Of a stretch of 64,000 nt of DNA, positions 6,636-55,520 are shown one piece after another. Under the pieces are notes generated by a model. The model worked only from the letters and a program-made list of their open reading frames with translations. It ran no database searches and was not told the DNA's origin. The position numbers were made by a program, and so were the translations under genes. The first letter of the stretch is position 1; every line of letters begins with the position of its first letter. Source of the DNA: a virus. The DNA lies in IMG/VR virus record IMGVR_UViG_3300050821_003884, positions 16,898-80,897 of that record. One strand, given 5' to 3'.

Positions 6636-6874
6636 TTTAAATTTCCTCCAGTCAGGGCGCTGATACATGCCTCAGAGGGCCAGCGGTTGATGTCGCTGCG
6701 GCAGTCGCCGCTGTAGCCCGGTGGATGAGCGCCGTCGCAGCAGCCGCAATCTTCCCAGTCGTCGGGCGGATTTTCGGCGTAGGTAGGGTTCGGTGCCAGC
6801 TCCCATGCCTTGGGGTCTACATAGAAACCCTTCGACTGGGCAACAGGCTGGTTATTGCTGGGTTGGGTCGTCAT
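6632..6874 (-). CDS. Small Cys-rich hypothetical protein
   Basis: This 80-aa protein begins MTTQPSNNQPVAQ and carries DDWEDCGCCDGAHPPGYSGDC near the C-terminus, a probable metal or disulphide cluster. The ATG at 6874 has GTAGGAG nine bases upstream. An alternative GTG at 6970 would add 32 residues and overlap the upstream stop, but it has a weak ribosome site. The end overlaps the next start by four bases. Confidence 0.5.
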   Translation of the reverse strand: MTTQPSNNQPVAQSKGFYVDPKAWELAPNPTYAENPPDDWEDCGCCDGAHPPGYSGDCRSDINRWPSEACISALTGGNLK

Positions 6875-6966
6875 GTCATTACTCCTACTGAGAAAGGCGA
6901 GGATACTCTCAACAAAGGTCAGCATCGTTTCCCTCACGCAAATCGGTTTACCTGCGGTTGCGGCGT

Positions 6967-7386
6967 TCACTTCTTACTGCTCCTGTAGGCGTCGATCAGC
7001 TCCTGAATCTGGCCGTCCGCTGCGGACAGCAGGCTCTGAGCCTGATCTTTCACGACATTGCTACCGCTCTGGAAGGCCCATTGCTGAACAAAAAGGTCGC
7101 CATCGTCGGTCTGCATTGTTAAGGCAACCGCCTGAATACTGGAAGAGTCCTTGGCAAGGGCATCGCTCAGCGTGACCACGTGCAGCCTCCAGCGGGTGCC
7201 CGTGGACGCGGATTCGTAGCGCGGACTGCGGGCAATATCATCGCGCAGGGCGGAGCAAAAACGTCCGCCGACAAAGTCGTCGGCTTCGTTGGTGCAGGTG
7301 ACTTCGATAGGCTGCTTGTTGGGCTGTGCATGGCACAGGCTGGCGGTGAAAACTAAGGCAGAGAGTATTACAGTAGTAAGTTTCAT
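6967..7386 (-). CDS. Exported hypothetical protein
   Basis: This 139-aa protein has a clear Sec signal peptide, MKLTTVILSALVFTASLCHA, with cleavage likely after Ala20. The mature part is small and polar with two cysteines (VTCTNEADDFVGGRFCSAL) that could form a disulphide. It is one of three exported proteins in the left arm; the periplasm or envelope is its probable place. No family was recognised. The start follows a GGGAGGGG leader. Confidence 0.6.
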   Translation of the reverse strand: MKLTTVILSALVFTASLCHAQPNKQPIEVTCTNEADDFVGGRFCSALRDDIARSPRYESASTGTRWRLHVVTLSDALAKDSSSIQAVALTMQTDDGDLFVQQWAFQSGSNVVKDQAQSLLSAADGQIQELIDAYRSSKK

Positions 7387-7425
7387 TTCCCCTCCCGGAA
7401 ATCGGTTTATGTGTAGTTGCTGTTT

Positions 7426-7620
7426 TTAATTTGCGTGCTGGTGCAGGTAATCCCAAGCTTCTCGGGCAGTGAAGCTCCCGAGACGCCTTCCAGCCCCGTT
7501 GTAGATGGTCCTGCGCTGATCGTCGTTCTCTTTGCGGTGCGTCCAGCCCCGGCTGGCGATGGCTTCGCTCAGAGTCTGCTCGCCTGCGACGACAGTGTTG
7601 ACATAATGTTCGTGATCCAC
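7426..7620 (-). CDS. Small hypothetical protein, GTG start
   Basis: This 64-aa protein (MDHEHYVNTVVAGEQTLSEAI...) has HRKENDDQRRTIYNGAGRRLGSFTAREAWDYL, a pattern of many short phage proteins of unknown role. The start is GTG at 7620 behind the CGGGAGGG leader that precedes most genes of this arm. Confidence 0.55.
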   Translation of the reverse strand: MDHEHYVNTVVAGEQTLSEAIASRGWTHRKENDDQRRTIYNGAGRRLGSFTAREAWDYLHQHAN

Positions 7621-14617: not shown

Positions 14618-15505
14618 CTACGCTGTCTTACGCTTGGGTACGAGCGTACGGTACGCCTTGTGCGCGGAGATGAGCTTCTTCTCTGCCGCGTCCGTGGCAT
14701 CTTCCAGCCAGTGATCCACTGCGTGAGCCAGAGCCTCGGCTGCTTCATAGACGGAGCTGGTCACCTTGGGTGCTGGCGCTGGCTTCGCTGTTCCGTGGGC
14801 CTTCGCGTCCTTCGTCTTACCCTTGGCGGCGATCACGTTGCTGACCTTGACGCGGGTCTTGCCCTTCAACGTGTTCTTGGTTTCCGCGATGACCTCCTTC
14901 TGCTTGTCCTTGCTCAGCTTGGTAAGCTGGACGGCAGCGGTGATCTTCACCTTCCCGTCACGAACGGCTTGTGCGGCTTCAGGAGCCAATTCCACCAGTG
15001 CGGCACGGTCTTTCACCCACTTCACCGCAGTCGCCTTCTCTTCGGGCTTCTTCGCCTCAGGAAAATAGATTTCAGCAATCTCTTCCAGAGACTTCTTGAA
15101 GCGCTTCTGCCAGATGCCGATGTTGTGTGTGTCGTCCATCGGCGTGGTGTCCTTGCGGAAACGGTTCTCGGCAATGGCTGCGGCGAAGGCTTCTTCGTCG
15201 GTCAGCGTCTCGTAGGTCGCCTCAAGCTTGATGAGCGGCTCGCCCTTCTTGGCTAGGCGGCTGTTCAGCAGCTTGACGGCACGCCAGCGGCGGTGGCCGT
15301 AGACGAGCACGGGTTGACCAGCGTCATTCTTGCGCACCAGTACGGGTGTGCGCTGGCCGTTCTTTTCAATATCTGCGGCCAAGTCATCGACATCGGTGTT
15401 CTCGATGCGCCCGTTAAGCTGCGGATCGAGCAGGATGTTCTCAGGGTAATCAGCGACCAGAGTGCTGGTGCGCTTCGTTGTTTCGTTTGCGAATACTACA
15501 GCCAT
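14618..15505 (-). CDS. parB: ParB-like protein
   Basis: This 295-aa protein has a ParB N-terminal CTPase/nuclease-like domain: DLAADIEKNGQRTPVLVR (about 41-58), YGHRRWRA (69-76, the box II equivalent) and AENRFRKDT. A helical central region probably contains the DNA-binding helix-turn-helix. An Ala/Lys/Pro-rich linker leads to a C-terminal helical dimerisation part. No parA lies nearby, so partition by this protein alone is uncertain; ParB-like phage proteins can also act in DNA modification or transcription. It starts a transcription unit behind the dyad promoter at 15607-15632. The many palindrome-like leader cores in this arm are possible binding sites. Confidence 0.8.
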   Translation of the reverse strand: MAVVFANETTKRTSTLVADYPENILLDPQLNGRIENTDVDDLAADIEKNGQRTPVLVRKNDAGQPVLVYGHRRWRAVKLLNSRLAKKGEPLIKLEATYETLTDEEAFAAAIAENRFRKDTTPMDDTHNIGIWQKRFKKSLEEIAEIYFPEAKKPEEKATAVKWVKDRAALVELAPEAAQAVRDGKVKITAAVQLTKLSKDKQKEVIAETKNTLKGKTRVKVSNVIAAKGKTKDAKAHGTAKPAPAPKVTSSVYEAAEALAHAVDHWLEDATDAAEKKLISAHKAYRTLVPKRKTA

Positions 15506-29837: not shown

Positions 29838-30161
29838 ATGGCGGAACAACCGTTGCGGGAACTTTACCAGCGTCTAAACCATTTGCTGTACGACGCCTCG
29901 CTGACTATCGACCACTTCGAAGCCAGCCCGGAACTGGACAGGCTGCCCAACGTGGCCGACATGGGAGCGCGTCGGGTGGGTTACCCGGAAACGGAGAAGT
30001 ACTGCCGGTTCAAGGTGGACCAGATGATCGCGCATGCCGAAGCCATCCACGACGAAATGGACAGGGTGGCAAAGGTACTGGAAAGGCTGGCGGCTGAAGT
30101 GCAGCCTTCCGTGGCGGAAACGGGTCCGTGGCGCGAGCTTTTACGTTTTAATAAAAAGTAA
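29838..30161 (+). CDS. Helical hypothetical protein, 107 aa
   Basis: Helical with LYQRLNHLLYDASLTIDHFEAS, then HDEMDRVAKVLERLAAEV. GGGAGGGG lies before the ATG. Its last codons run directly into the repeat array that starts at about 30160. No domain was recognised. Confidence 0.55.
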   Translation: MAEQPLRELYQRLNHLLYDASLTIDHFEASPELDRLPNVADMGARRVGYPETEKYCRFKVDQMIAHAEAIHDEMDRVAKVLERLAAEVQPSVAETGPWRELLRFNKK

Positions 30162-30353
30162 GCGCCATCAGAAGTAGAGCGTCAAGCCAAAGAAATCGTG
30201 CGTGCCAAGTAATTTGCGTGAGCCAACTGATACGCGAGCGCCATGAAGGGAGAGTGAGCCGCTATGCTGGAGAGCGCCAAATGAAGGGAGCGGTACACTG
30301 GGGCGTCCGAATCATGGCCGATGAGAGTACCACAGTGTCAGAGTGAACCAAAC

Positions 30354-30386
30354 GAGTGATATAAGGGGTTTTTGTACATTAACCAT
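30354..30386 (+). repeat. Array interruption element a
   Basis: The B core is split: GAGTGA, then TATAAGGGGTTTTTGTACATTA, then ACCATTG and the normal spacer. It is related to interruptions near 30991, 31281, 33612 and 33783 (consensus about TACCGGGGCTTTTGTACTT). Confidence 0.55.
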
Positions 30387-30987
30387 TGTCTAGGCGAGCA
30401 CCACGAACAGCGAGTGAATCATGGGACATGAGAGTGCCAAGAGGCGGGAGTGAATCAAGCAAATTGAGAGTACCGGGAAAAGGGAGTGGCGAGCCATTTG
30501 CGGATGCGAGTGCCAAAGCAAGCGTGCGAGCCAGCCTAAGTGAGCGACAGCCGTTCTTGATACGAGCGCCATGGAGTGGGAGCGAACCATATCTTGAGTG
30601 AGCGCCAAAATGGTGGTGTGAACCACCGAAATTGCGAGTACCAAAGTAAATGCGTGAACCGGAAAGCTATGAGAGCACCAGAATCAGGGAGTGAGCCAAA
30701 GATCGTGAGAGCGCCAAAGGCCGAGGAGCGAACCATCATTGCTGCGAGCACCATTAAAGTTGCGTGAATCAGTAATCATGCGAGCACCAAAAGAGGTGAG
30801 TGAATCAGACATGACGAGAGCGCCAAGATCAGCGAGTGAACCAGTAATTATGCGAGCACCAGAATAATAGCGTGAACCAATCTAGCAGCGAGCACCAAGA
30901 CGATAGAGTGAATCATGCAAACTGCGAGTGCCACGCCCGGAGAGTGAACCAAAGTATGAGCGGGTGCCAAACCAAATGCGTGAATAA

Positions 30988-31036
30988 ACGAATGATACAG
31001 GTGGCTTTTATAATTTTAATTTCAGCCAAAATTACT
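30988..31036 (+). repeat. Array interruption element b
   Basis: GAATGATACAGGTGGCTTTT followed by an AT-rich stretch (TATAATTTTAATTTCAGCC) replaces a B core. It is the most diverged copy; the TATAAT string could act as a -10 element for a sub-array. Confidence 0.45.
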
Positions 31037-31280
31037 TGCGAGCGCCATCGTAAGAGTGAACCAAGTCTTTGGCGAGTGCCGGGAATCCCGCGTGAGCCAA
31101 TAGGTAGTGCGAGCGCCAAAGTGACAGTGCGAACCGAAAGACGCGAGATGCGCCAAAGAAAATGCGTGAACCGTAATGAAAGTGAGCGCCAAGTTCAGAG
31201 CGTGAACCAAGTTGATTGCGAGCACCATTAACGGCGAGTGAACCAACATGGATGTGCGTGCCAAGCGCATGGAGTGAAAT

Positions 31281-31312
31281 GAGTGATACCGGGGCTTTTG
31301 CTTTTCAAACCA
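31281..31312 (+). repeat. Array interruption element c (arm of 21-bp inverted repeat)
   Basis: GAGTGATACCGGGGCTTTTG continues to 31305, then CAAACCATT resumes the array. Positions 31285-31305 are the exact reverse complement of 31450-31470. Confidence 0.65.
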
Positions 31313-31447
31313 TTACATCGGCGGGTGCCAATAAACGAGCGTGAAATTAACCAGTTCAAATGCGCAGTACCAAATAATCCGCGTGAACCACAAAGTAGTG
31401 CGAGCACCACAACACCGGCGTGAACCATATGCACCGCGTGTGCCATA

Positions 31448-31482
31448 GTAAAAGCAAAAGCCCCGGTATCGCTCGTTTAACC
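31448..31482 (-). repeat. Array interruption element d, inverted copy
   Basis: Positions 31450-31470 are the exact reverse complement of 31285-31305, with about 145 bp of array (four units) between. It is the only interruption in the opposite direction. The pair could fold into a long stem or mark an inverted segment. Confidence 0.65.
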
Positions 31483-31794
31483 AACCTTACGGCGAGCGCC
31501 AAGTTGGAAGCGTGGAACCGGAATCAGAGTGAGCGCCAAATACGCTGAGTGAAACCATGGGTGTTGCGAGCACCAGTAAGACTGCGTGAACCAAGATCAG
31601 GGAGAGTGCCAATCGATGAGAGTGAACCAAGTACACCGGGAGTTACCAAAGGAGTTGAGTGAACCAAAGAGTGTTGCGAGTGCCATAACTGCGGAGTAAC
31701 CAACCCACAAGCGAGTACCAAAGATTACGCGTGAACTAATTCATTTGCGAGCGCCAAGGAATCGGAGTGAACCAATCAGCAGGGGAGGAGGACC

Positions 31795-31953
31795 GTGAAA
31801 ACTTACACCGTGCTGCTCAGGGACCGCAGTTATCACGAAATTAAAGCCATGAACGAAAACAGCGCTTACAACAAGGCCCTGCGCCGCTTCGGAATCCATA
31901 GCGTCTTTGCCGTCTGGCGGACCCGATCAGCGCCCGGAGTCTTTAAGGATTAA
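31795..31953 (+). CDS. Small protein embedded in the array, 52 aa
   Basis: GTG start behind GGGGAGGAGG. The protein reads MKTYTVLLRDRSYHEIKAM, then NENSAYNKALRRFGIHSVFA. It is a beta-alpha mini-protein that resembles short phage proteins without known role. It is flanked on both sides by array units, so it is transcribed with the array if that is read rightward. It could be a Tas accessory factor or just a passenger. Confidence 0.7.
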   Translation: MKTYTVLLRDRSYHEIKAMNENSAYNKALRRFGIHSVFAVWRTRSAPGVFKD

Positions 31954-31973
31954 GGGAACAACAGCCAGTGTAG

Positions 31974-32259
31974 ATGCGAGCGCCAAGATACCAGTGTGAG
32001 CCGATGTACAGCGAAAGCCATCTTTGACGGGAGTACCGGAAGGATTGAGTGAACCAATGTCGAAGGTGAGCACCACGGTATAGGAGTGAACCAATAGATG
32101 CGAGAGCGCCACAGCCATAGCGTGAACCAGCTTGATAGTGAGTGCCAGATATAGGGAGTGAACCAGAACCCTAGAGAGCGCCAAGATTGAGGAGTGAATT
32201 TGAAAGAAGTTACCCCGGATCGCGTGCGAGTGCCGAATCCAAGGAGTGAATTTTAATTT
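31974..32259. repeat. TIGR-like guide array, part II (about 8 units)
   Basis: The same A and B cores continue after the 52-aa gene. Units at 32067, 32104, 32140 and 32175 are 35-37 bp apart. Two positions (about 32010 and 32195-32225) are degenerate. The last B core (GAGTGAA, 32242) is followed by TTTTAATTT and then by an A core that contains the tas start codon. Confidence 0.8.
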
Positions 32260-33276
32260 ATGAGCACCATCGCACCCATCGCTGAAGTCATGGAGCCGCT
32301 CAAGCGGCTTACGCGGGATTTAGCCAAAGCCGCCGTCACCCTGTCCGCGCACGAGGCGCGGTTTCTGGTGGACGCCTACTACATGATGCAGAAGAACCGC
32401 ATCGCCGCCGCGCATCAGATTCGTACCCTGAGCGCGGGCAACGAACCCCACACCGTGCTGGACTGGCTGGAAACCCAGAGCGAGATGCTGGAATCGCAGA
32501 TCAAACGCGCTCTGGACAAGTGGACGGACGCGAACCCGGTCGGCATCTGGGCAAAGAGTATCACCGGCATCGGCCCCGTCATCGCGGCGGGATTACTGGC
32601 GCATATCGACATCACCCACTCGGAGACGGCGGGGCATATCTGGTCCTTCGCCGGACTCAATCCCGAGATGGTGTGGAAGAAAGGAGAGAAGCGGCCTTTC
32701 AACGCGTCGCTCAAAACCCTGTGCGCCTTCAAACTGGGCGAGTCGTTCGTGAAGGTGCAGGCGAATGAAAACGACATCTACGGCAGGGTCTTCGCCATGC
32801 GCAAGAAGCAGGAAGCGGAATACAATGTGGCGGGCAGGTTTGCCCAGATAGCCGCGACGAAGGCGGCGATGGTTGGCAAGTCCACCGACGCGTACAAGGC
32901 GTACAGCGCCAACCTGCTGCCCCCGGCGCACATCCATGCGCGGGCCAGACGCTACGCGGTAAAACTGTTTTTAGCCCATTACCACATGGTGGCTTATTTC
33001 CAGCACCACCAGCGGCTGCCGCCCTTTCCCTACGCCTTCTCCCATCTGGAAGGGCACATCCACTTCATCGAGCCGCCGCATGCGGATTTGATTCCGGGCC
33101 TGCCTGCGGCGCTGAATATCTACCAGTTAGAGATGCGCAACCGGCCAAGGAATTTTAATCCACGACAACCAAAAGCTATGAGCGCACCAATGCAGATGAG
33201 TGAACCAGTGTCGCCGGGTGTACCAAGAAACGAGAGTGAACCGAAGCCGAAAGGCAAAAGGAAGCGCAAGGCGTAA
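32260..33276 (+). CDS. tas: Tas-like protein: Nop/IS110-type RNA-guided protein without nuclease domain
   Basis: This 338-aa protein has a helical N-terminal region (residues 1-95, with ARFLVDAYYMMQKNRIAAA). A domain resembling the IS116/IS110/IS902 transposase C-terminus follows at about 98-170: SITGIGPVIAAGLLAHIDI, then GHIWSFAGLNPEMVWKKGE. The C-terminal part is HIHARARRYAVKLFLAHYH (224-242), and the end is a basic tail. TIGR-associated (Tas) proteins have a Nop domain related to this IS110 region and use 36-nt dual-spacer RNAs to find DNA. TasR has an added RuvC domain and TasH an HNH; neither is visible here, so it matches the stand-alone type (TasA in my recollection). Binding without cutting, for example repression, is the expected activity. 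The start codon lies in an array core and residues 307-328 are encoded by two array units. Many databases would call it a transposase; there are no terminal inverted repeats or DEDD domain. Confidence 0.8.
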   Translation: MSTIAPIAEVMEPLKRLTRDLAKAAVTLSAHEARFLVDAYYMMQKNRIAAAHQIRTLSAGNEPHTVLDWLETQSEMLESQIKRALDKWTDANPVGIWAKSITGIGPVIAAGLLAHIDITHSETAGHIWSFAGLNPEMVWKKGEKRPFNASLKTLCAFKLGESFVKVQANENDIYGRVFAMRKKQEAEYNVAGRFAQIAATKAAMVGKSTDAYKAYSANLLPPAHIHARARRYAVKLFLAHYHMVAYFQHHQRLPPFPYAFSHLEGHIHFIEPPHADLIPGLPAALNIYQLEMRNRPRNFNPRQPKAMSAPMQMSEPVSPGVPRNESEPKPKGKRKRKA

Positions 33277-33609
33277 ACCACAGTACTTGCGAGCACCAAG
33301 CAGTCGGAGTGAACCAGAGAATCGGAGAGCACCAAGCCAAGGGAGTGAACCAGCACACGAGAGAGCACCAAGGAGCGCGAGTGAACCAGTAAGTTAGCGA
33401 GTACCAAGAACCGCGAGTGAACCATTAGCAGTTGCGAGCACCAGAACTAGGGAGTGAACCAGTAGCCACGTGAGCACCAATATCGGTGAGTGAACCATCA
33501 TGGTTGTGAGCACCAGAGGAAACACGTGAACCAAGATTTCCGTGAGCGCCAATGGACGAGAGTAAACCGGAAAGCGGGAGAGCACCAAGCGGATAGAGTG
33601 AACCAAACC

Positions 33610-33642
33610 AGCAATACCGGGGCTTTTGTACTTTGAACTAAT
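33610..33642 (+). repeat. Array interruption element e
   Basis: ATACCGGGGCTTTTGTACTT (33614-33633), then TGAACTA, a modified B core. It is identical to element c over ATACCGGGGCTTTTG. Confidence 0.6.
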
Positions 33643-33780
33643 TCATCAGGGAGCGCCAAAAAGAATGCGTGAACCATGGGCCATGCGGGTGCCAAAGCAC
33701 GAGAGTGAAAACCATTCCGCGTGAGCGTACCAAAAATGTCGCGTGAACCAGAGTCGTTGTGAGTGCCATACAAAGGGAGT

Positions 33781-33805
33781 GAGCGGGTTTTGTACTTAAC
33801 CGATT
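33781..33805 (+). repeat. Array interruption element f
   Basis: GAGCGGGTTTTGTACTTAAC splits a B core and is followed by CGATTATCAGGC and a normal A core. It shares TTTTGTAC with elements a and e. Confidence 0.55.
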
Positions 33806-34026
33806 ATCAGGCGAGCGCCAGCGTCGAGGAGTGAACCACGAGCCGCGAGAGCACCAATGCTGCGGAGTGAACCAGAAGGAGATGAGAGCGCCAAGGCAGG
33901 GAAGTGAACCAGTGTACCAGTGAGCACCAAAATGAGTGAGTGAACCATTAGATTAAGGGAGCACCAATAGTACGGCGTGAACCAAAAAGCGAGAGAGCGC
34001 CAAGTTGGAAGTGTGAACCAAAGGAC

Positions 34027-34251
34027 ATGAGAGTGCCAGACAAAGGGAGTGAAATTAAATTCAGCTCCGGCGTGCGTGGCAAGTACGCCGGGAAGCTGCC
34101 GCTGGTGGCCGACGTGAGTATTAGCATCACCTGCCCCAAGTGCGGGATGACGAGTTACAACCCGAACGACGTAAGCCAGCGTTACTGCGGCAACTGCCAT
34201 GCATTTCACGACGACATGAAAGAGGGGTTTGAACGTGGCCCTAGAAGCTGA
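34027..34251 (+). CDS. Zinc-ribbon protein starting inside the last array unit
   Basis: This protein of up to 74 aa has a core SISITCPKCGMTSYNPNDVSQ, then RYCGNCHAFHDD, a widespread short zinc-ribbon family. From ATG 34027 the first nine residues are encoded by an array unit (MRVPDKGSE). A GTG near 34098 with GGGAAG upstream is an alternative start that would exclude the array. Its function is unknown. Confidence 0.65.
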   Translation: MRVPDKGSEIKFSSGVRGKYAGKLPLVADVSISITCPKCGMTSYNPNDVSQRYCGNCHAFHDDMKEGFERGPRS

Positions 34252-34753: not shown

Positions 34754-35314
34754 ATGAGCTGCCCACGCGACGGAAGGCAGAGCCACCCCCTGTTCCAAAC
34801 GTGGCGTTCCATGGTGCGTCGGTGCCACGATCCAAAGTTTAGGCACTATAAGAATTACGGCGCACGTGGCATTCGCGTCTGCGATGTATGGCGACGGTCA
34901 TTCTGGCAGTTCGTGACTGACGTAGGCCAGCGGCCAGCGGGCCGTAGCTTAGACCGGGAGGATAATAACGGTCCTTATTCTCCCGGCAATGTTAAATGGG
35001 CTACACGCGAGGAACAGGGTCGAAACACGCGCTTCAATCGTCTGCTTACGGTCAACGGTGTTACGAAAACATTGCAGGAGTGGAGCAATGAAACGGGTCG
35101 CCCGAAGAGCACTCTTTTTAATCGCATCCGACGCGGCTGGACGGGCGAGGAGGCTGTGCTCACCCCCGTGCGCGGAGAAAGCGTCTTGAGCGTGTGCCAT
35201 GAGCTTGGGTTGAACCCTAATACGGTAGCGGGCAGACTACGCCGTGGCTGGACATGGGAGCAAGCGATTGCTAAACCTGTTCAGGTCCATCGAAGGAGAG
35301 ATTATGTCCACTAA
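34754..35314 (+). CDS. Homing-endonuclease-like phage protein (YGxRGI family)
   Basis: This 186-aa protein has the order TWRSMVRRCHDP, YKNYGARGIRVCDVWRRSF, GRSLDREDNNGPYSPGNVKW and ATREEQGRNTR. This is a common phage family related to HNH-type homing enzymes (the C/H/D/N residues fit a divergent zinc-less HNH). Two helix-turn-helix tails follow, ending RIRRGWTGEEAVLTPV and RLRRGWTWEQAIAKPV. It overlaps the next gene by 11 bases. It is probably a selfish DNA-cutting gene inserted among early genes. Confidence 0.7.
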   Translation: MSCPRDGRQSHPLFQTWRSMVRRCHDPKFRHYKNYGARGIRVCDVWRRSFWQFVTDVGQRPAGRSLDREDNNGPYSPGNVKWATREEQGRNTRFNRLLTVNGVTKTLQEWSNETGRPKSTLFNRIRRGWTGEEAVLTPVRGESVLSVCHELGLNPNTVAGRLRRGWTWEQAIAKPVQVHRRRDYVH

Positions 35315-46558: not shown

Positions 46559-46944
46559 ACAGGCAGCTACAGACAAAAATTATCTACTACTACAACGGCG
46601 TGACCGGCGCAATCACCATGGGACTCCCGGAGCAGTACAGCGCACCCTATGGCTGGCAGAAGATCGTCTGCCACACAGCGCATGAGGCCGAAGTATGGTC
46701 TGCGCGGATGCGGCGCTGGGAAGCCTTCAAGCAGCAGATGGAAGACGAGCAGCGGGAGCTTATCGAGGGGCCGATCCGGGATAACCTGCGCAGGCATATC
46801 CAGCATCTGGCCGCCAATGCCCGTAATAACATGAACCGCGATTTTCTACTTATGCATTTGAATAACTACGACAAGCGTCCGGACCTAACTAGGACCGAAC
46901 GGATAAGTTATCTACATGCGGAAGCCCACGAAAGCGGGCATTAG
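46555..46944 (+). CDS. Conserved small protein between terL and portal
   Basis: This 130-aa protein has KIIYYYNGVTGAITMGLPEQY, KIVCHTAHEAEVWSARMRRW and DEQRELIEGPIRDNLRRHI, then NARNNMNRDFLL and SYLHAEAHE. I recognise the pattern as a conserved phage protein always near packaging genes, function unknown. The ATG overlaps the terL stop. Confidence 0.7.
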   Translation: MNRQLQTKIIYYYNGVTGAITMGLPEQYSAPYGWQKIVCHTAHEAEVWSARMRRWEAFKQQMEDEQRELIEGPIRDNLRRHIQHLAANARNNMNRDFLLMHLNNYDKRPDLTRTERISYLHAEAHESGH

Positions 46945-47042
46945 TAAAAATTAAATTGCATGCGGACGGATGTCGTTGTAGGTTAGGCAAAGTTACCCCG
47001 TTTGTGGGAGCGGGTTCCGGGAGAGAAACTGGAAACGCCTGA

Positions 47043-49151
47043 GTGCCGGTTCTCGTCGATAGCGTTCAGCAGGCCGTCACGTCCACGGGGCGCACCTCGT
47101 GGGCTGCCCCGAAATTTGAATCGCACCCCAGCGTTATTTTCAATTGGGTAGAAGAGCAGATTCAGGAAGGCGAAGGCTTTCTTGAAGGCCAGCAATGCTA
47201 CCGGGACTTCTCCGCCAACCTGCGGGTCTTCAACGCCGTCTTCAAAGACACCGCCAAATCCAAGCTGGTCACCAACGAGCTTAAATACGATATCCGTAAG
47301 TTCTGCGAGACGCTGGCGCAGGTAAGAGAGATCGCCGGATACGGCTCCGACCATCCCGGATTTAAAAAGATGGCGGACATGCTGACGAAAGTCAGCAAGG
47401 CTATCTACCACGAGTCGGACTTCCCCTTTCAAATCCTCAAGGTTCTCCAATATGCCAGCGTGATGGGCATCGGCTACCTGTGGCCCAAGGTACGCGCCGA
47501 CGAGTACGGCTACGGGGAAAGAAAGATGGAGTTCGACGCGCTGGGGATGCTCGACGTGGTTCCGGTACAGGTGCCGCCGCGCAGCAACAACGTTCAGGAC
47601 GCCTACGCGGTTACCGTCTACGACTACATGCCCCTTGCCGAGGCATTTGCAAGGTTCCCCCTGTTTCAGGGCGACATTCAGCCCGTCGGCCCGCGCAATT
47701 TCTCGACGCGCATGCAGGCCCGCCGCATCGACTTCGCCGAGCGCAACCGCTATGGAATGCAGGGCCGGAGCTTCGGCGACCTCTACGCGGAAATCCGTTA
47801 TACCTTCGTGCGTGATGTACGCATCAACTCCACCGGCTTGGAGCTGCCCATGGGAGACATGGGGACCACTTGGTTCTACAAGGTTCCCTATGTCGGCCAG
47901 CAGATCGTGGGCGGCGTAAGTGATGGCAAGCCGATCATGCGCTATGCCACGCCGGAAGACTGCCGCGTCTATCCCAACCTGCGCTGCATTATTACTTCGA
48001 CGGGCATGGGAAAGCCCATGTACGACGGCCCCGCCTTCGACTGGGATTCGAAGATACCGATAATCCAGTACACCGTGGACGACTGGGCGTGGGAGCCGCT
48101 GGGACGGTCGCTGGTGGGCGATGTCGCTTCGATTGAAACCACCACGCGCAAGATCGAGCGCAAGATGGACGCGGTTATTACCGTTACGCTGAATCCGCCG
48201 CTGGGCTACAACCACACGGAAACCGGCGGTCCCAAGATCGAGCACTTCGACATCTTCGAAGAGGATGTTCGTCTGGGCGTGGACGGCAAGCCGCGAGATA
48301 CGCTGCAATCGGTATTACCCGAAAGCGTGCAGGTAACCAGCGAGCATTTTAATTTCCTGAAATACCTGAAGGAATGCAAGCAGACGCAGCTTGGACTACA
48401 GGACTTGGGCAACCTTCAGAACATGAAGATGAACATCGCCAATGACACCGCAGACAAGATGCTGGAGTCGATTGGTCCCATCGCCAAGGGCATCGCGGCC
48501 AGAATCGAAAAGAGTAACAAGGCTATTGGCTACAGGATGAAATTTTTAATTCTGCAATGGTTCAACGTGCGCCGGATCATGGAGTACGTGGGGCCGGACA
48601 GCGTCGCCCCGGAAACCTTCGACTACAACCCCGACGAGCTGGTCCCCAGCCACATGCCGGACGAAATGGTGAAGGGTAATTTCCCTAGTCTGGGATCGGT
48701 GTATTCGCAACTGGACCGGGCACGGTGGTTTGCCCGCAATATCCGGCTGGTTTCCGTGCCCAGCACGCTGCTGAAGATTACCCAGATGCAGCGCCAGTTG
48801 ACGATGCTGCAACTGAAGCGCGGCGGCGCTCCGCTCTCGTGGCTTACCGTCTTCCGCAACATGGACATTACGAACCCGGAAAAAGAGATTGAGGACAGCT
48901 TCAAGGAAGACGCCAAGCTACAGGAGATGAAGATACTGGCGCAGCTCGAAATCATGAGCAAGCTGAAGCAGATGGGTATCGATCCGCAGGCCCTGATGGG
49001 CGGTGGTGAAGGTGGCGGGGGCGGCGGTAAAGGCGGTGGCGGTGGCGGTGGCGGTAAAGGCGGCAGGCCGTCCAGCGGGCAGAAAGCGCCACGCTTGGGC
49101 ACCAAGGGTGGAGCCGGGGGCGAACCACGCACAACGGTGAAGGAATCATAA
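47043..49151 (+). CDS. Portal protein
   Basis: This 702-aa protein, immediately downstream of terL and its partner gene, has the features of a portal. It has a helical wing region (VRIAL-like stretches near SGFPFQILKVLQYASVMGIGY), a long beta/alpha core and a C-terminal coiled region (DSFKEDAKLQEMKILAQLEIM). A Gly-rich tail (GGGEGGGGGGKGG) and a basic end follow. It forms the ring at the capsid vertex through which DNA passes. GTG start; the ribosome site is weak. Confidence 0.8.
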   Translation: MPVLVDSVQQAVTSTGRTSWAAPKFESHPSVIFNWVEEQIQEGEGFLEGQQCYRDFSANLRVFNAVFKDTAKSKLVTNELKYDIRKFCETLAQVREIAGYGSDHPGFKKMADMLTKVSKAIYHESDFPFQILKVLQYASVMGIGYLWPKVRADEYGYGERKMEFDALGMLDVVPVQVPPRSNNVQDAYAVTVYDYMPLAEAFARFPLFQGDIQPVGPRNFSTRMQARRIDFAERNRYGMQGRSFGDLYAEIRYTFVRDVRINSTGLELPMGDMGTTWFYKVPYVGQQIVGGVSDGKPIMRYATPEDCRVYPNLRCIITSTGMGKPMYDGPAFDWDSKIPIIQYTVDDWAWEPLGRSLVGDVASIETTTRKIERKMDAVITVTLNPPLGYNHTETGGPKIEHFDIFEEDVRLGVDGKPRDTLQSVLPESVQVTSEHFNFLKYLKECKQTQLGLQDLGNLQNMKMNIANDTADKMLESIGPIAKGIAARIEKSNKAIGYRMKFLILQWFNVRRIMEYVGPDSVAPETFDYNPDELVPSHMPDEMVKGNFPSLGSVYSQLDRARWFARNIRLVSVPSTLLKITQMQRQLTMLQLKRGGAPLSWLTVFRNMDITNPEKEIEDSFKEDAKLQEMKILAQLEIMSKLKQMGIDPQALMGGGEGGGGGGKGGGGGGGGKGGRPSSGQKAPRLGTKGGAGGEPRTTVKES

Positions 49152-49179
49152 GTAATTTTTTATTTCCGGGAGAACTGAG

Positions 49180-49434
49180 ATGGCGATAAAGATCATGGCG
49201 CAGAGGGACTTTCTGGTAACTGAAGTCAGCATTGAGCTGCCCTGCGACCTTGCTGAACTCGAATTTCTGCTGAAAACGTCGCGAGGCACGGGCAGGATCG
49301 TCGCCATGTATCAGAAGGGCGGCACGATGGGCGTCAACATCGAACAGAAAACTAAAATTCGCGACAACGTCGCCGACAGAGTGCGGGCATTGGTGGGCGT
49401 GGAAAGCACGGAGATCAATGGACACGAGGAGTAA
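49180..49434 (+). CDS. Small hypothetical protein, 84 aa
   Basis: MAIKIMAQRDFLVTEVSIELP is followed by LEFLLKTSRGTGRIVAMYQKGG. It is an alpha/beta protein behind GGGAGAACTGAG. Similar short proteins with 'GRIVAMYQKGG' sit near portal genes in other phages in my recollection. Its function is unknown. Confidence 0.6.
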   Translation: MAIKIMAQRDFLVTEVSIELPCDLAELEFLLKTSRGTGRIVAMYQKGGTMGVNIEQKTKIRDNVADRVRALVGVESTEINGHEE

Positions 49435-49520
49435 GTGGGATAACATGCGCCTATCTTCCATACTTTTGATTTCTAATTACGCGCACCCGAGGCAAAGTCA
49501 AGATTCTGCGAAATAAAATC

Positions 49521-49549
49521 TTGACGGCAGGGAATAGTTAGGCATAGTT
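49521..49549 (+). promoter_or_regulatory. Candidate late promoter P2 (capsid block)
   Basis: TTGACG, 17 nt, ATAGTT, then GAGATACAG 20 nt later and the hairpin at 49609. It matches the arrangement before terL base for base at the key positions. Confidence 0.55.
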
Positions 49550-49608
49550 TCGTAGGCAAGATTCATTTGAGATACAGACTCCCCGGTAATGTGCTGGGAT
49601 TAAGTCAT

Positions 49609-49641
49609 GGCTCTGGCAAAACGCTAGGGCCATTTTTATTT
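49609..49641 (+). terminator. Intrinsic terminator before capsid block
   Basis: GGCTCTGGC-aaaac-GCTAGGGCC (nine pairs with two G-U) followed by ATTTTTATTT. It keeps the sequence CATGGCTCTGGC of the terL terminator. Confidence 0.7.
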
Positions 49642-49673
49642 GACCTAGCACAACCACTCAAAAGGAGTCTGTC

Positions 49674-49775
49674 ATGGCAAAACGTCGGAAGCATTCCGCT
49701 GCTGTAGCCCACATCAAGAAGTCCCGCAAGCACCGTGGCCGCAAGGGTGGCCGTAAGAGCGCCATCAAGGCGTAG
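49674..49775 (+). CDS. Tiny basic protein, 33 aa
   Basis: MAKRRKHSAAVAHIKKSRKH is followed by RGRKGGRKSAIKA. More than one third Lys/Arg. AAAGGAG lies ahead of the ATG. It is probably a DNA- or RNA-binding or capsid-packaged peptide; similar basic mini-proteins are at 59994 and 60157. Confidence 0.65.
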   Translation: MAKRRKHSAAVAHIKKSRKHRGRKGGRKSAIKA

Positions 49776-49817
49776 TTGTAGCCCCGCACCGCCGAGTAAC
49801 AAAGCTGGAGAGTGCAG

Positions 49818-50132
49818 ATGGCTACACCCCCAATGCCGCAACCCGATCCGGGACAGGGAGCCGCACCGCCGAATGGTGGAGGCTCCCCTCCCCCTGCGCC
49901 AGATCAAGGCGGACAGCAGCCTCCCGATCAGGGTGGGCAGCCATCTCAGGCTCCCGCCAATCCCATTCAAATCCTCCTCGCCAAGTGGTCCAAAGTCGCC
50001 GAACAGATGAGTCAGGCTGATCCGCGTCTGGCAGCGGGCGCAAATAAAGTGCGCGAGGGCATCCGGGATATGCAGCAGGCCATGATTACACCGCAGCAAC
50101 CGACACCGCTGGGACAACAGCCCCAGTACTAA
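49818..50132 (+). CDS. Pro/Gln-rich protein with helical C-terminus, 104 aa
   Basis: A low-complexity start (MPQPDPGQGAAPPNGGG and PPPAPDQGGQQPPDQGG) precedes IQILLAKWSKVAEQMSQADP, then GANKVREGIRDMQQAM. It is probably a minor head or scaffold-associated protein, judged from its position before the scaffold gene. Confidence 0.6.
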   Translation: MATPPMPQPDPGQGAAPPNGGGSPPPAPDQGGQQPPDQGGQPSQAPANPIQILLAKWSKVAEQMSQADPRLAAGANKVREGIRDMQQAMITPQQPTPLGQQPQY

Positions 50133-50167
50133 CCACAACTGTGAATTTCCGGGAGAAATAAAACCTT

Positions 50168-51115
50168 ATGCCAACCGTAGAAGAAGTTTTGAGACAAAGC
50201 GGATTTACCGATGAGCAGATTGCTGGCCTCGACAAGCGGGCTATCACCGCTTTCAGTGGCGTGCTGAGCGCAGCGGACAGGGAACGGCTGGAAGCCAAGG
50301 CCGCGCAGGATGCAGCGGAGCTGGCGCAGCGCAGCAATGTCGATTTCTACGAAAACAGGATCGCGCCTTCGCTAACGCAGTGGGAAGAGGAGAAGCAGCG
50401 CATCGAGAACGAGAAGGCAACGCTGGCGGCACAGGCCGCCTTCTATAAAACGCAGGCTGAGGAAGCCAAGAAGTCAGGCTTTATCGCCGCCGATGCCCCC
50501 AACTTTGTCCCTCCCCCCAATCCCAATCCCGGCGTCCAGCCCCGCGACGGCCAAGGCCGCTACGTAGCGGGCGCTCCCGGCGGCACACCCGGTTCCCCGC
50601 AGTACTTCGACGTGAATAAAGTCTACGAAACCGCTGGCACGGCGGCAGTCCTGATCTCTGACATCGACTGGAAGCACCGCCAGCTCTACGGGGGCAAGCC
50701 CCTGCCGATTTCGCCGACCGAACTGATCCGACAGGCCGACGCCGTCAAGCTCGATCCCATGACCTACGCCTCCCGCACATTTAATTTCGCCGGTCGCGAA
50801 GAGCAGATGAAGGCGGAAGAAGAGAAAGCGCGGAACGAGAAGATCGCCGCCGAGGCCGTAGCCCCGTACGAGGCGAAGCTGAAGGAAGCCGACGAGCAGC
50901 GCAAGAAGGACTTGGCGGAAAACGACAGGAAATGGGCAGAGCGCGTCGGCTCAAATCCCGATGTCCGCATGCCCCAAACGAATCCGCGAATGACAGATAT
51001 TGCTCAGGCGGTTCGCGCAGATGCAAAGCTCGATCCGCTGAATATGAACGATCAGCAGCGCAGGGCGATGACCTCGCAGATGATTCGCAAGGACATTGAA
51101 GGAAACGCGGCCTAA
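50168..51115 (+). CDS. Scaffold-like capsid assembly protein
   Basis: This 315-aa charged protein is mostly coiled coil. The stretches include FYENRIAPSLTQWEEEKQRI, EKATLAAQAAFYKTQAEEAKK and MKAEEEKARNEKIAAEAVAP. A Pro/Gly-rich linker with RDGQGRYVAGAPGG lies between them. It lies directly before the major capsid gene, the usual scaffold position. The end (MTDIAQAVRADAKLDPLN) may bind the capsid protein. Confidence 0.7.
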   Translation: MPTVEEVLRQSGFTDEQIAGLDKRAITAFSGVLSAADRERLEAKAAQDAAELAQRSNVDFYENRIAPSLTQWEEEKQRIENEKATLAAQAAFYKTQAEEAKKSGFIAADAPNFVPPPNPNPGVQPRDGQGRYVAGAPGGTPGSPQYFDVNKVYETAGTAAVLISDIDWKHRQLYGGKPLPISPTELIRQADAVKLDPMTYASRTFNFAGREEQMKAEEEKARNEKIAAEAVAPYEAKLKEADEQRKKDLAENDRKWAERVGSNPDVRMPQTNPRMTDIAQAVRADAKLDPLNMNDQQRRAMTSQMIRKDIEGNAA

Positions 51116-53704: not shown

Positions 53705-54245
53705 GCATGGAGGGGAAATTAAGATGAGCAAATTCGCCAAAATGTCGGAGCGCCAGCCCATCATAAAGTCTCGCTGCTTCTTCGGCGGTCATAACAAGGG
53801 GAGATACGATTTGCCTACCTCTAACTATGATCGATGCGCGGAATTTATTTCTGAATCGACGAACCCCCTTGTACCCAATCGTGTTATTCGACGGCTTCGG
53901 GCGATTGGCTTGATTCTGGGAAGTTGTGCATGGACGCAAATTGTCGTCCCGATTATCAAGGCCGTTGCCGTTGTGGTGGTCGATGTCGGAAGAATGGCAT
54001 CCGCCAAGAATGACTCTGTGCATAAGGATGCGCTTCTTTCTTCCCTCGACGACAACCCTTCGCGTTGCGTAGAAGGTGTGCTTTTTACTGTTCCACTGCG
54101 CGTGCCAGTTGAACTGCATCAGGTGGTCGAAATGCCGCGAGCTGACAAGGCAATTCAGTCCTCCGGCCAACGGAATGATGCGATAGCTAGGATCGGATGG
54201 CTGAACAACAGTATGGCGCTGTACCTCGCGTTTCATCTCGGCCAT
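53682..54245 (-). CDS. HNH homing endonuclease with AP2-like DNA-binding domain
   Basis: This 187-aa protein has SSRHFDHLMQFNWHAQWNSKK, then LMHRVILGG, then SSDIDHHNGNGLDNRDDNLRPC, the HNH catalytic pattern, followed by TTSQNQANRP and the AP2-like GYKGVRRFRNKFRASIIV. These enzymes cut DNA at intron-free or intron-bearing sites and spread. It is the only - strand gene within the virion operon. Its last 14 codons use the ribosome site and hairpin of the flanking region, so the insertion was precise or recent. Confidence 0.85.
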   Translation of the reverse strand: MAEMKREVQRHTVVQPSDPSYRIIPLAGGLNCLVSSRHFDHLMQFNWHAQWNSKKHTFYATRRVVVEGRKKRILMHRVILGGCHSSDIDHHNGNGLDNRDDNLRPCTTSQNQANRPKPSNNTIGYKGVRRFRNKFRASIIVRGRQIVSPLVMTAEEAARLYDGLALRHFGEFAHLNFPSMPTEAHVA

Positions 54246-54281
54246 TTTACCCAAGCGGAAGCCCCTTATAGAGGTGCCTAA

Positions 54282-55520
54282 ATGTCCTTGGGTTCAATGC
54301 GGCAGGAGCTACTCGGCATACCGGGCACAAACTTCGGCCTGTGTACCACGAAAATTAACGAAGCTCTGGCTCTGATTCAGGATGAAAACGTCTGGAGCTT
54401 CCAGCTCATCACGAATGGATGGCTCACTCCCGGCCTGCTGGGTGGGCCGAACACAACCTTTCTCAGCCCCGGACTGATAACCGTTACCCCGTATACCAAC
54501 ACCATCACCGGCGATGCGGTGGCGTCGCAGACTTGGCAGGCGACGATTTTTAATCCGCCGCTGCTGACGCAACAGCAGATCAGAGTCCCGTACTACTCGC
54601 TCTATAACATCATCGCGCTGGGAAATAACGGCACCGCTTCGTATGTAACAATCTCCAGCCCCGGCTCAGGGCAGACGCCGGGAACCTATCCGACTCTGAT
54701 TACCGATGGCGCGGGCGCGGGCGGAGGCGGCATTGCTCTGGTCACGGTAGCGGCAGACGGGACAGTGAAGACGGCTCCCACGATACTGGCTCCGGGGGCG
54801 GGCTACGTGATGCCCGTAATTAATTTTTCGCAGGGCGGAGTTCCCGCAGTCTTCCAAGTCGGCATGCAGGCGGTGCTGACGCTGGACCGGCCATGGACGG
54901 AGCCGAAGCAGGTCAATGCGGGCTACATGATCTATCAGGCTTACTTTGCCGCGCCACCCGGATTCAAGCGCTGGTATCTCATCGAGGACACAACCAACAA
55001 TGCCTATATCGACTGGTGGTCTTTTTCGCAGATCGATCTTTCCCAGCGCGACGCGCAGAGAACTAATTTCCAGCAGCCCAGCAATGCGGTTCCTTACGGG
55101 ATGGACACGCGGCAGGGCAGCGCGACGTATGGCCAGTTTTTATATGAGTTATGGCCGCACCCGATCATGCAACTGCCATATACGTTTTCCTGTCAAGCGA
55201 ATTGGCCCGCGCTGGTAAATCCCGGCGATATGGTTCCGTACCCGCTCACCGATGAGCTGGTGAAGTGGCGGTCCTACGAAGTGCTTTACCTCTGGAAAGA
55301 GTCGCAGAAGGGCGACGAGATGGAGCGCGGGTCGGGCGCGAACTGGCAGTTCCTCTCGCAGGCGGCGAACAAGGAATACGGAGGCCGTCTCAAGACGATC
55401 CGCAACATGGATCGCCATCTCGTCGATCTCTACTTCACCAAGATGCGCAGGCAGCCATCCTTTGGATCGGTCTACGGAACCGTGAACAGTCAGGCAAACG
55501 TCGGCGGATGGGACAGCTAG
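54282..55520 (+). CDS. Probable head-tail connector / adaptor protein
   Basis: This 412-aa protein starts MSLGSMRQELLGIPGTNFGL and contains QDENVWSFQLITNGWLTP. A Gly-rich insertion of about 60 residues follows (SPGSGQTPGTYPTLI), and the rest is Trp/Tyr-rich: RWYLIEDTTNNAYIDWWSFSQ, DELVKWRSYEVLYLWKE. The beginning and the C-terminal helical part resemble phage head-closure or adaptor proteins. It lost its direct linkage to the capsid operon through the HNH gene. Confidence 0.6.
   Translation: MSLGSMRQELLGIPGTNFGLCTTKINEALALIQDENVWSFQLITNGWLTPGLLGGPNTTFLSPGLITVTPYTNTITGDAVASQTWQATIFNPPLLTQQQIRVPYYSLYNIIALGNNGTASYVTISSPGSGQTPGTYPTLITDGAGAGGGGIALVTVAADGTVKTAPTILAPGAGYVMPVINFSQGGVPAVFQVGMQAVLTLDRPWTEPKQVNAGYMIYQAYFAAPPGFKRWYLIEDTTNNAYIDWWSFSQIDLSQRDAQRTNFQQPSNAVPYGMDTRQGSATYGQFLYELWPHPIMQLPYTFSCQANWPALVNPGDMVPYPLTDELVKWRSYEVLYLWKESQKGDEMERGSGANWQFLSQAANKEYGGRLKTIRNMDRHLVDLYFTKMRRQPSFGSVYGTVNSQANVGGWDS

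Follow-up and report, generated by a model that had tools for sequence, protein, structure and literature searches.

The virus record IMGVR_UViG_3300050821_003884 (80,897 bp; labelled G000 in genome comparisons) carries a TIGR array around the gene for a nuclease-less Tas protein. We analyzed bases 16898-80897 of the record, a stretch of 64,000 nucleotides that we call the window. Dual-repeat TIGR-TasA systems are already known from phages (Faure 2025, PMC12045711), and the system in the window is a TIGR array with the published TasA type, rather than merely "TIGR-Tas-like," as an earlier sequence-only reading had put it. The guide library of this phage lineage is rewritten quickly, as shown by sister viruses that are almost the same otherwise and yet have fewer than half of their guides in common. 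Our favored interpretation, which we consider reasonably probable, is that the phage carries a dual-repeat TIGR-TasA system with an evolving guide repertoire that binds outside DNA without cutting it. What this case adds to the known TIGR-TasA systems is evidence of fast non-polar turnover, exchange of units, and dispersed arrays.

The array region (30160-34056, + strand) has about 69 units, each of them 36 nt long and made up of an edge repeat GNGTGAACCA, 8-nt spacer A, the loop repeat GNGAGYRCCA, and 8-nt spacer B. The sequence-only reading had described about 70 units with two alternating cores, GAGYRCCA and GTGAAYCA, and the counts agree. Exact GAGYRCCA occurs 53 times on the region's + strand (vs. 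7 times on the + strand elsewhere in the window), exact GTGAAYCA occurs 40 times (vs. once), and neither has an exact match on the - strand within the region. The cores alternate at exactly 18 nt 57 times in the region and 0 times in the rest of the window, and the maximum across 500 first-order Markov shuffles was 0. When we parsed the region, we found 69 loop cores and 63 edge cores. The spacing from core to core was 18 nt in 96 of ~117 steps and 19 nt in another 10, which makes the 36-bp period strong, though not strict in the way that had been claimed. Also, the variable segments are 8 nt long rather than "about 10," since the G and N ahead of each core belong to the repeats (which are 10 nt).

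The region has three blocks (~30160-31774, 31969-32253, and 33164-34056), as had been noticed, but these are subdivided by six junction elements. The first two blocks form the upstream array (30160..32253, + strand), which is interrupted by junction elements and by a short open reading frame (31795-31953). The third block is the downstream array (33164..34056, + strand), and tasA's 3' end runs in frame through the initial units of this array (33164-33260). Sub-arrays open with 5'-truncated edge repeats and close with 3'-truncated ones, which matches published TIGR arrays. Because sub-arrays finish in a truncated GTGAA and resume with ACCA, the GTGAAYCA-type repeat GNGTGAACCA is the edge repeat. 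Both the edge and loop repeats have the expected ends, box D (GNG) and box C (CCA), and in several relatives the final base covaries between the two repeats (CCA with CCA, CCG with CCG). Among 80 viral relatives, most have adjacent 36-bp dual-repeat arrays, in which the usual repeats are GAGCGAGCC[AG] (edge) and GAGAGNACC[AG] (loop). Many array units carry aberrant spacers or repeats. The array region has no match in Rfam at the gathering threshold, and there was no match in the defence libraries.

The gene within the array, tasA (32260..33276, + strand), encodes a Nop-domain protein of 338 amino acids. The protein matches NCBIfam's TIGR_Tas_endo (NF052498) at 193.7 bits, well above the cut-off of 100. 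By sequence, the best solved relatives in PDB are TasR (9mty, 8.7e-13) and TasH (5.1e-8), and a profile of 41 relatives gives 1.9e-28 for TasR and 2.2e-17 for TasH. In an AlphaFold2 model (confidence score pLDDT 85.8), all ten matches at E <= 0.001 are TasH or TasR, and IS110-family recombinases rank after them. When aligned with TasH, the protein has no segment equivalent to the HNH domain. Because this segment is missing, the protein is TasA, the nuclease-less form of Tas. Thus, the proposal of a stand-alone Tas without a nuclease passed two of the checks that came with it, a profile search against Tas families and a structure prediction for 32260-33276. The protein's end is less certain. 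Residues from ~300 onward (the last ~40) are encoded by or beside array units and have low model confidence: the frame extends into the units at 33164-33260, which yields a basic tail that is absent from both sister phages, where TasA terminates ahead of the array.

Among characterized systems, SpTIGR-TasH of Salicola phage CGphi29 (PMC12045711; HQ634153) has the same layout of 10+8+10+8, with 36-nt units, alternating 10-nt repeats AAGCGAGCCA and AAGACAACCA, and 8-nt spacers. TasH from CGphi29, which was characterized experimentally, is a Nop-domain protein that is ~27% identical to the window's TasA by alignment, but it has an N-terminal HNH nuclease, and its array is short. The TIGR-TasA of Flavonifractor plautii (FpTIGR; PMC12045711) combines a stand-alone nuclease-less Nop protein with a dual-repeat array, as in the window. 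The 36-nt tigRNA of FpTasA was shown experimentally. In FpTIGR, the variable part of each tigRNA is 18 nt, instead of 8+8 as in the window. TIGR-TasR (PDB 9mty) shares the Nop fold, the tandem-spacer logic, and the CCA of box C, but it has a RuvC nuclease, and its box D is UG instead of GNG. Published TIGR arrays, including those of TIGR-TasA, typically have 5-15 units (PMC12045711). Compared to those, the window's ~69 units are indeed unusually many, as the sequence-only reading had it, but near relatives have ~80 and other family members have up to ~75.

The closest TasA relatives of the window's protein are from two phage records, G001 (122 kb) and G002 (121 kb), and comparing these sisters shows how the array changes. 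Most of their common backbone blocks are 97-98% identical, including 5.2 kb that lead into the array, and they encode identical TasA proteins. Their main arrays have 78 and 79 parsed units. Just 34 units are common to both, in the same order (27 identical and 7 near-identical); another 9 are half-shared, and 35 and 36 are private. Common and private units are interleaved, and neither array shows a trend towards tasA (permutation p = 0.20 for each). In the retained units, 11 of 544 spacer positions and 12 of 340 loop-repeat positions have substitutions, which is about the divergence of the backbone. Because the retained units diverged only that much, the difference between the arrays reflects replacement of units, not hypermutation, and the junctions can fall within the loop repeat. 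Other pairs behave similarly. For example, L171 and L172 have 7.5 kb outside their arrays in which they are 97.1% identical, yet only 1 unit is common to arrays of 11 and 24 units, and the same pattern of turnover is seen for L169/L171, L170/L172, and L192/L197. Overall, unit turnover is fast, interior, and non-polar, and it recurs in independent lineages.

Units also seem to be shared across larger distances. The window's unit ATTATCAG/GCGTCGAG (33795..33830, + strand) is 2 mismatches from G002's unit ATTATCAC/GCGTCAAG, and GTGTACCA/AAATGAGT (33904..33939, + strand) is 1 mismatch from GTGTACCA/AGATGAGT. The two G002 units are adjacent, in a phage that has diverged far from the window's. Because we calculated that only ~0.001 such pairs are expected by chance, the units were either exchanged between phages or re-acquired independently. 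Near-duplicate units within arrays, as well as half-shared units, show that recombination occurs at the repeats. (We considered if near-duplicates might track synonymous changes in a target, but the differences are spread beyond one codon phase.)

Not all of the guides lie near tasA. Satellite TIGR arrays, tens of kilobases away, were found between genes on the + strand: two in G000 (locus L006; contig positions 10439-10651 and 12569-12783, outside the window), one in G001 (69181-69641; L010 9181-9641), and one in G002 (54154-54617; L016 14154-14617). The same scan came up empty on the opposite strand and in a shuffled genome. The satellite array that is common to G001 and G002 also differs between these sisters. 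Elsewhere in the family, arrays are split into four or five blocks across ~10 kb. The location of the tasA cassette differs as well between G000 and G001/G002. A comparison of G000 46900-51100 with G001 69180-73150 suggests that the cassette moves, because the region of G001 that is syntenic to the cassette's site in G000 bears a satellite array.

In the window, a 3'-truncated edge repeat AGGAGTGAA (32242..32259, + strand) lies at the position of tasA's Shine-Dalgarno sequence. This last truncated edge repeat, GGAGTGAA, is at Shine-Dalgarno distance 5' of tasA, and the arrangement is similar 5' of genes that follow satellite arrays. Judging from its position, the truncated repeat may serve as the Shine-Dalgarno sequence. 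This arrangement, along with unit turnover and satellite arrays far from tasA, is new relative to the main text of Faure et al. (PMC12045711). Within that main text (as distinct from its supplements), satellite arrays are not described, and the terms "turnover," "acquisition," and "closely related" do not appear.

How might the system work? We start from the observed array anatomy, the identity of TasA, its missing nuclease domain, the satellite arrays, and the fast turnover. Processing, the dimer, and tandem-spacer pairing are borrowed from published relatives, whose arrays are processed to 36-nt tigRNAs and whose Tas dimers use two spacers that pair with opposite strands (PMC12045711); we ourselves infer that the arrays are co-transcribed and supply TasA in trans, that TasA blocks its targets without cleavage, that these targets are outside DNA, and that the host is acidobacterial. 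The arrays and phage genes on the + strand would share a transcript, which would be cut in the middle of each edge repeat to give 36-nt tigRNAs. A TasA dimer would grip the tigRNA by the ends of its edge and loop repeats, which are box C (CCA) and box D (GNG). Spacer A would pair with one strand of the target and spacer B with the opposite strand of the adjoining target, and TasA would bind the DNA and probably bend or block it, without cutting. Several dispersed arrays might supply a single TasA in trans. In this view, the guide set is an evolving repertoire, in which phages replace, duplicate, and trade whole units (or at times half-units that meet at a repeat) much faster than the rest of the genome changes. 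The likeliest purpose would be interference with variable outside DNA, which in acidobacterial hosts might be that of plasmids, prophages, or other phages.

We searched for targets using a model that was inferred from the published cleavage rule: spacer A, a gap of 0-2 nt, and the reverse complement of spacer B. Neither the phage itself nor its sisters had an excess of such sites over mispaired controls or other orientations, with four orientations and gaps of 0-3 covered. Similarly, 898 spacer pairs showed no excess of targets in 1.9 Mb of DNA from related and TIGR-bearing phages. So the paired-spacer search that the sequence-only reading had proposed gave only chance-level matches, and its suggestion that the protein binds rival or host DNA without cutting has gained no target in the phage's own genome, its sisters, related phages, or 396 acidobacterial genomes. 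Some leads were set aside. When viral contigs were scanned for exact matches to the two units that the window has in common with G002, the hits were in unrelated, partly redundant genes, and one gap-0 cluster among them, which encodes a helicase-like motif (RDYQLDA), looks like chance on a conserved motif. A weak peptide-level excess (A plus reverse complement of B, gap 0) was about as large as that for natural DNA, but the more powerful test of coding phase did not support it.

Some of these results count against our interpretation. With no target in any search, "outside DNA" comes from exclusion and from the guides' variability. Furthermore, a test of reading frame in the spacer pairs gave z of 0.3 and 0.7, as compared to 3.5 and 8.0 for natural 16-mers (contiguous phage coding DNA). 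Because this signature is missing, most spacer pairs are not just fragments of the kinds of genes that these phages carry. Finally, the host assignment leans on distant relatives in contigs from metagenome-assembled genomes (MAGs) of Acidobacteriota, which may be misbinned. As for composition, spacers are A-rich, with ~40-45% G+C vs. 57% in the genomes. In the window, G001, and G002, the first positions of spacer B are biased towards purines, and C is scarce at position 1 of spacer A and positions 1-3 of spacer B. This bias is strand-asymmetric, which pairing with double-stranded DNA does not explain. The variable N of box D had no consistent correlation with the spacers.

The guides might instead aim at conserved chromosomal genes of Acidobacteriota, for takeover of the host or for bending an attachment site. 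Relatives in Acidobacteriota MAGs, a putative integrase in a probably temperate phage, and the proposal by Faure et al. of integrase aid as one option (PMC12045711) would all fit. But the two units that are conserved between divergent phages had 0 and 1 target matches in the 396 acidobacterial genomes, while reversed-pattern controls had 0 and 7, so (strain-specific targets aside) we view this as unlikely. We give a similarly low, but not negligible, probability to a drifting, largely non-functional array, in which duplication, recombination, and mutation of the units go on with no selection on their targets. Drift would account for the empty target searches, the lack of a coding-frame signature, the recombination at repeats, and the aberrant units. 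It does not sit well with repeats and a 36-nt frame that are maintained across ~70-80 units while the spacers differ, with a TasA that is intact and identical in the sisters, or with the persistence of dual-repeat arrays in most of the 80 relatives from viruses.

Less likely still, array-guided TasA might regulate or organize the phage's own genome. TasA lacks a nuclease, the arrays lie amid phage genes, and the genome encodes a ParB-like protein and an integrase, but the spacer A/B pattern is no more common in the own or sister genomes than in controls, and private units change faster than the genome that they would need to match. For practical purposes, an IS110-type transposase with a bridge RNA, or a CRISPR array, is refuted: despite the repeat-spacer appearance and Pfam's Transposase_20 (the only family above its cut-off in TasA), the IS110 model reaches just 34.5 bits (cut-off 140), the locus has an array rather than a single bridge RNA and lacks the DEDD catalytic domain of IS110/IS621 transposases (which share the Nop-like RNA-binding domain with TasA), the two 10-nt repeats alternate around 8-nt spacers without an Rfam match, and the proteins scanned (part of the window's genes) include no Cas.

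Six junction elements subdivide the arrays. The first (30353..30386, + strand) is a 3'-truncated edge repeat, T-rich GATATAAGGGGTTTTTG, and then a 5'-truncated edge repeat (AACCA); the second (30986..31028, + strand) is a longer variant. The third (31279..31312, + strand) contains GATACCGGGGCTTTTG (31279-31304). In the fourth (31446..31483, - strand), the GATACCGGGGCTTTTG element is inverted within the + strand array (31446-31470), with 0 mismatches on the - strand. The last two are AATACCGGGGCTTTTG (33608..33640, + strand) and GGGTTTTGTACTTAACC (33784..33803, + strand). The GATACCGGGGCTTTTG element resembles half of an intrinsic terminator; we found no complete intrinsic terminator for the truncated arrays, only T-rich junction elements that look like half-terminators. 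The open reading frame inside the array (31795..31953, + strand; 52 amino acids) has no family match, and the sisters' arrays have no such gap. We also rejected a loop-like motif across tasA's start codon as autoregulation, as most relatives lack it.

Just 3' of the array is a gene for an HNH endonuclease, probably a homing endonuclease (34754-35314). It has no counterpart in the sister phages, so we rejected it as TasA's nuclease partner, and the unseen partner that had been suggested was not found. The ParB-like gene (14618-15505, - strand) is ~17 kb from tasA, so the two do not form a TasA-TasParB operon. In L242, a MAG contig from Acidobacteriota, a gene that resembles a ParB-like nuclease (by eye only) lies directly 3' of tasA (~6810-7600), which recalls the published TasParB pairing. 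G000 is probably a temperate tailed phage, given that its proteins include an integrase-family member, a terminase, and one that is likely the major head protein. More distant relatives in Acidobacteriota MAG contigs suggest an acidobacterial host group.

Faure et al. left open the origin and expansion of the arrays, their targets, and the role of nuclease-free TasA (PMC12045711). Pairs of near-identical phages, with arrays of ~80 units that are more than half different and with junctions inside repeats, offer a handle on the arrays' origin and expansion, and time series of these pairs might reveal the sources of units and the DNA that they match. More broadly, and with slightly more doubt than belief, we propose that phage TIGR arrays are actively renewed, dispersed guide libraries, in which units and half-units are swapped anywhere in the array (instead of at one end, as in CRISPR) and are exchanged between divergent phages, and whose several sites in a genome supply one TasA in trans. 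If so, they would be a fast-evolving, non-cutting form of interference between mobile elements.

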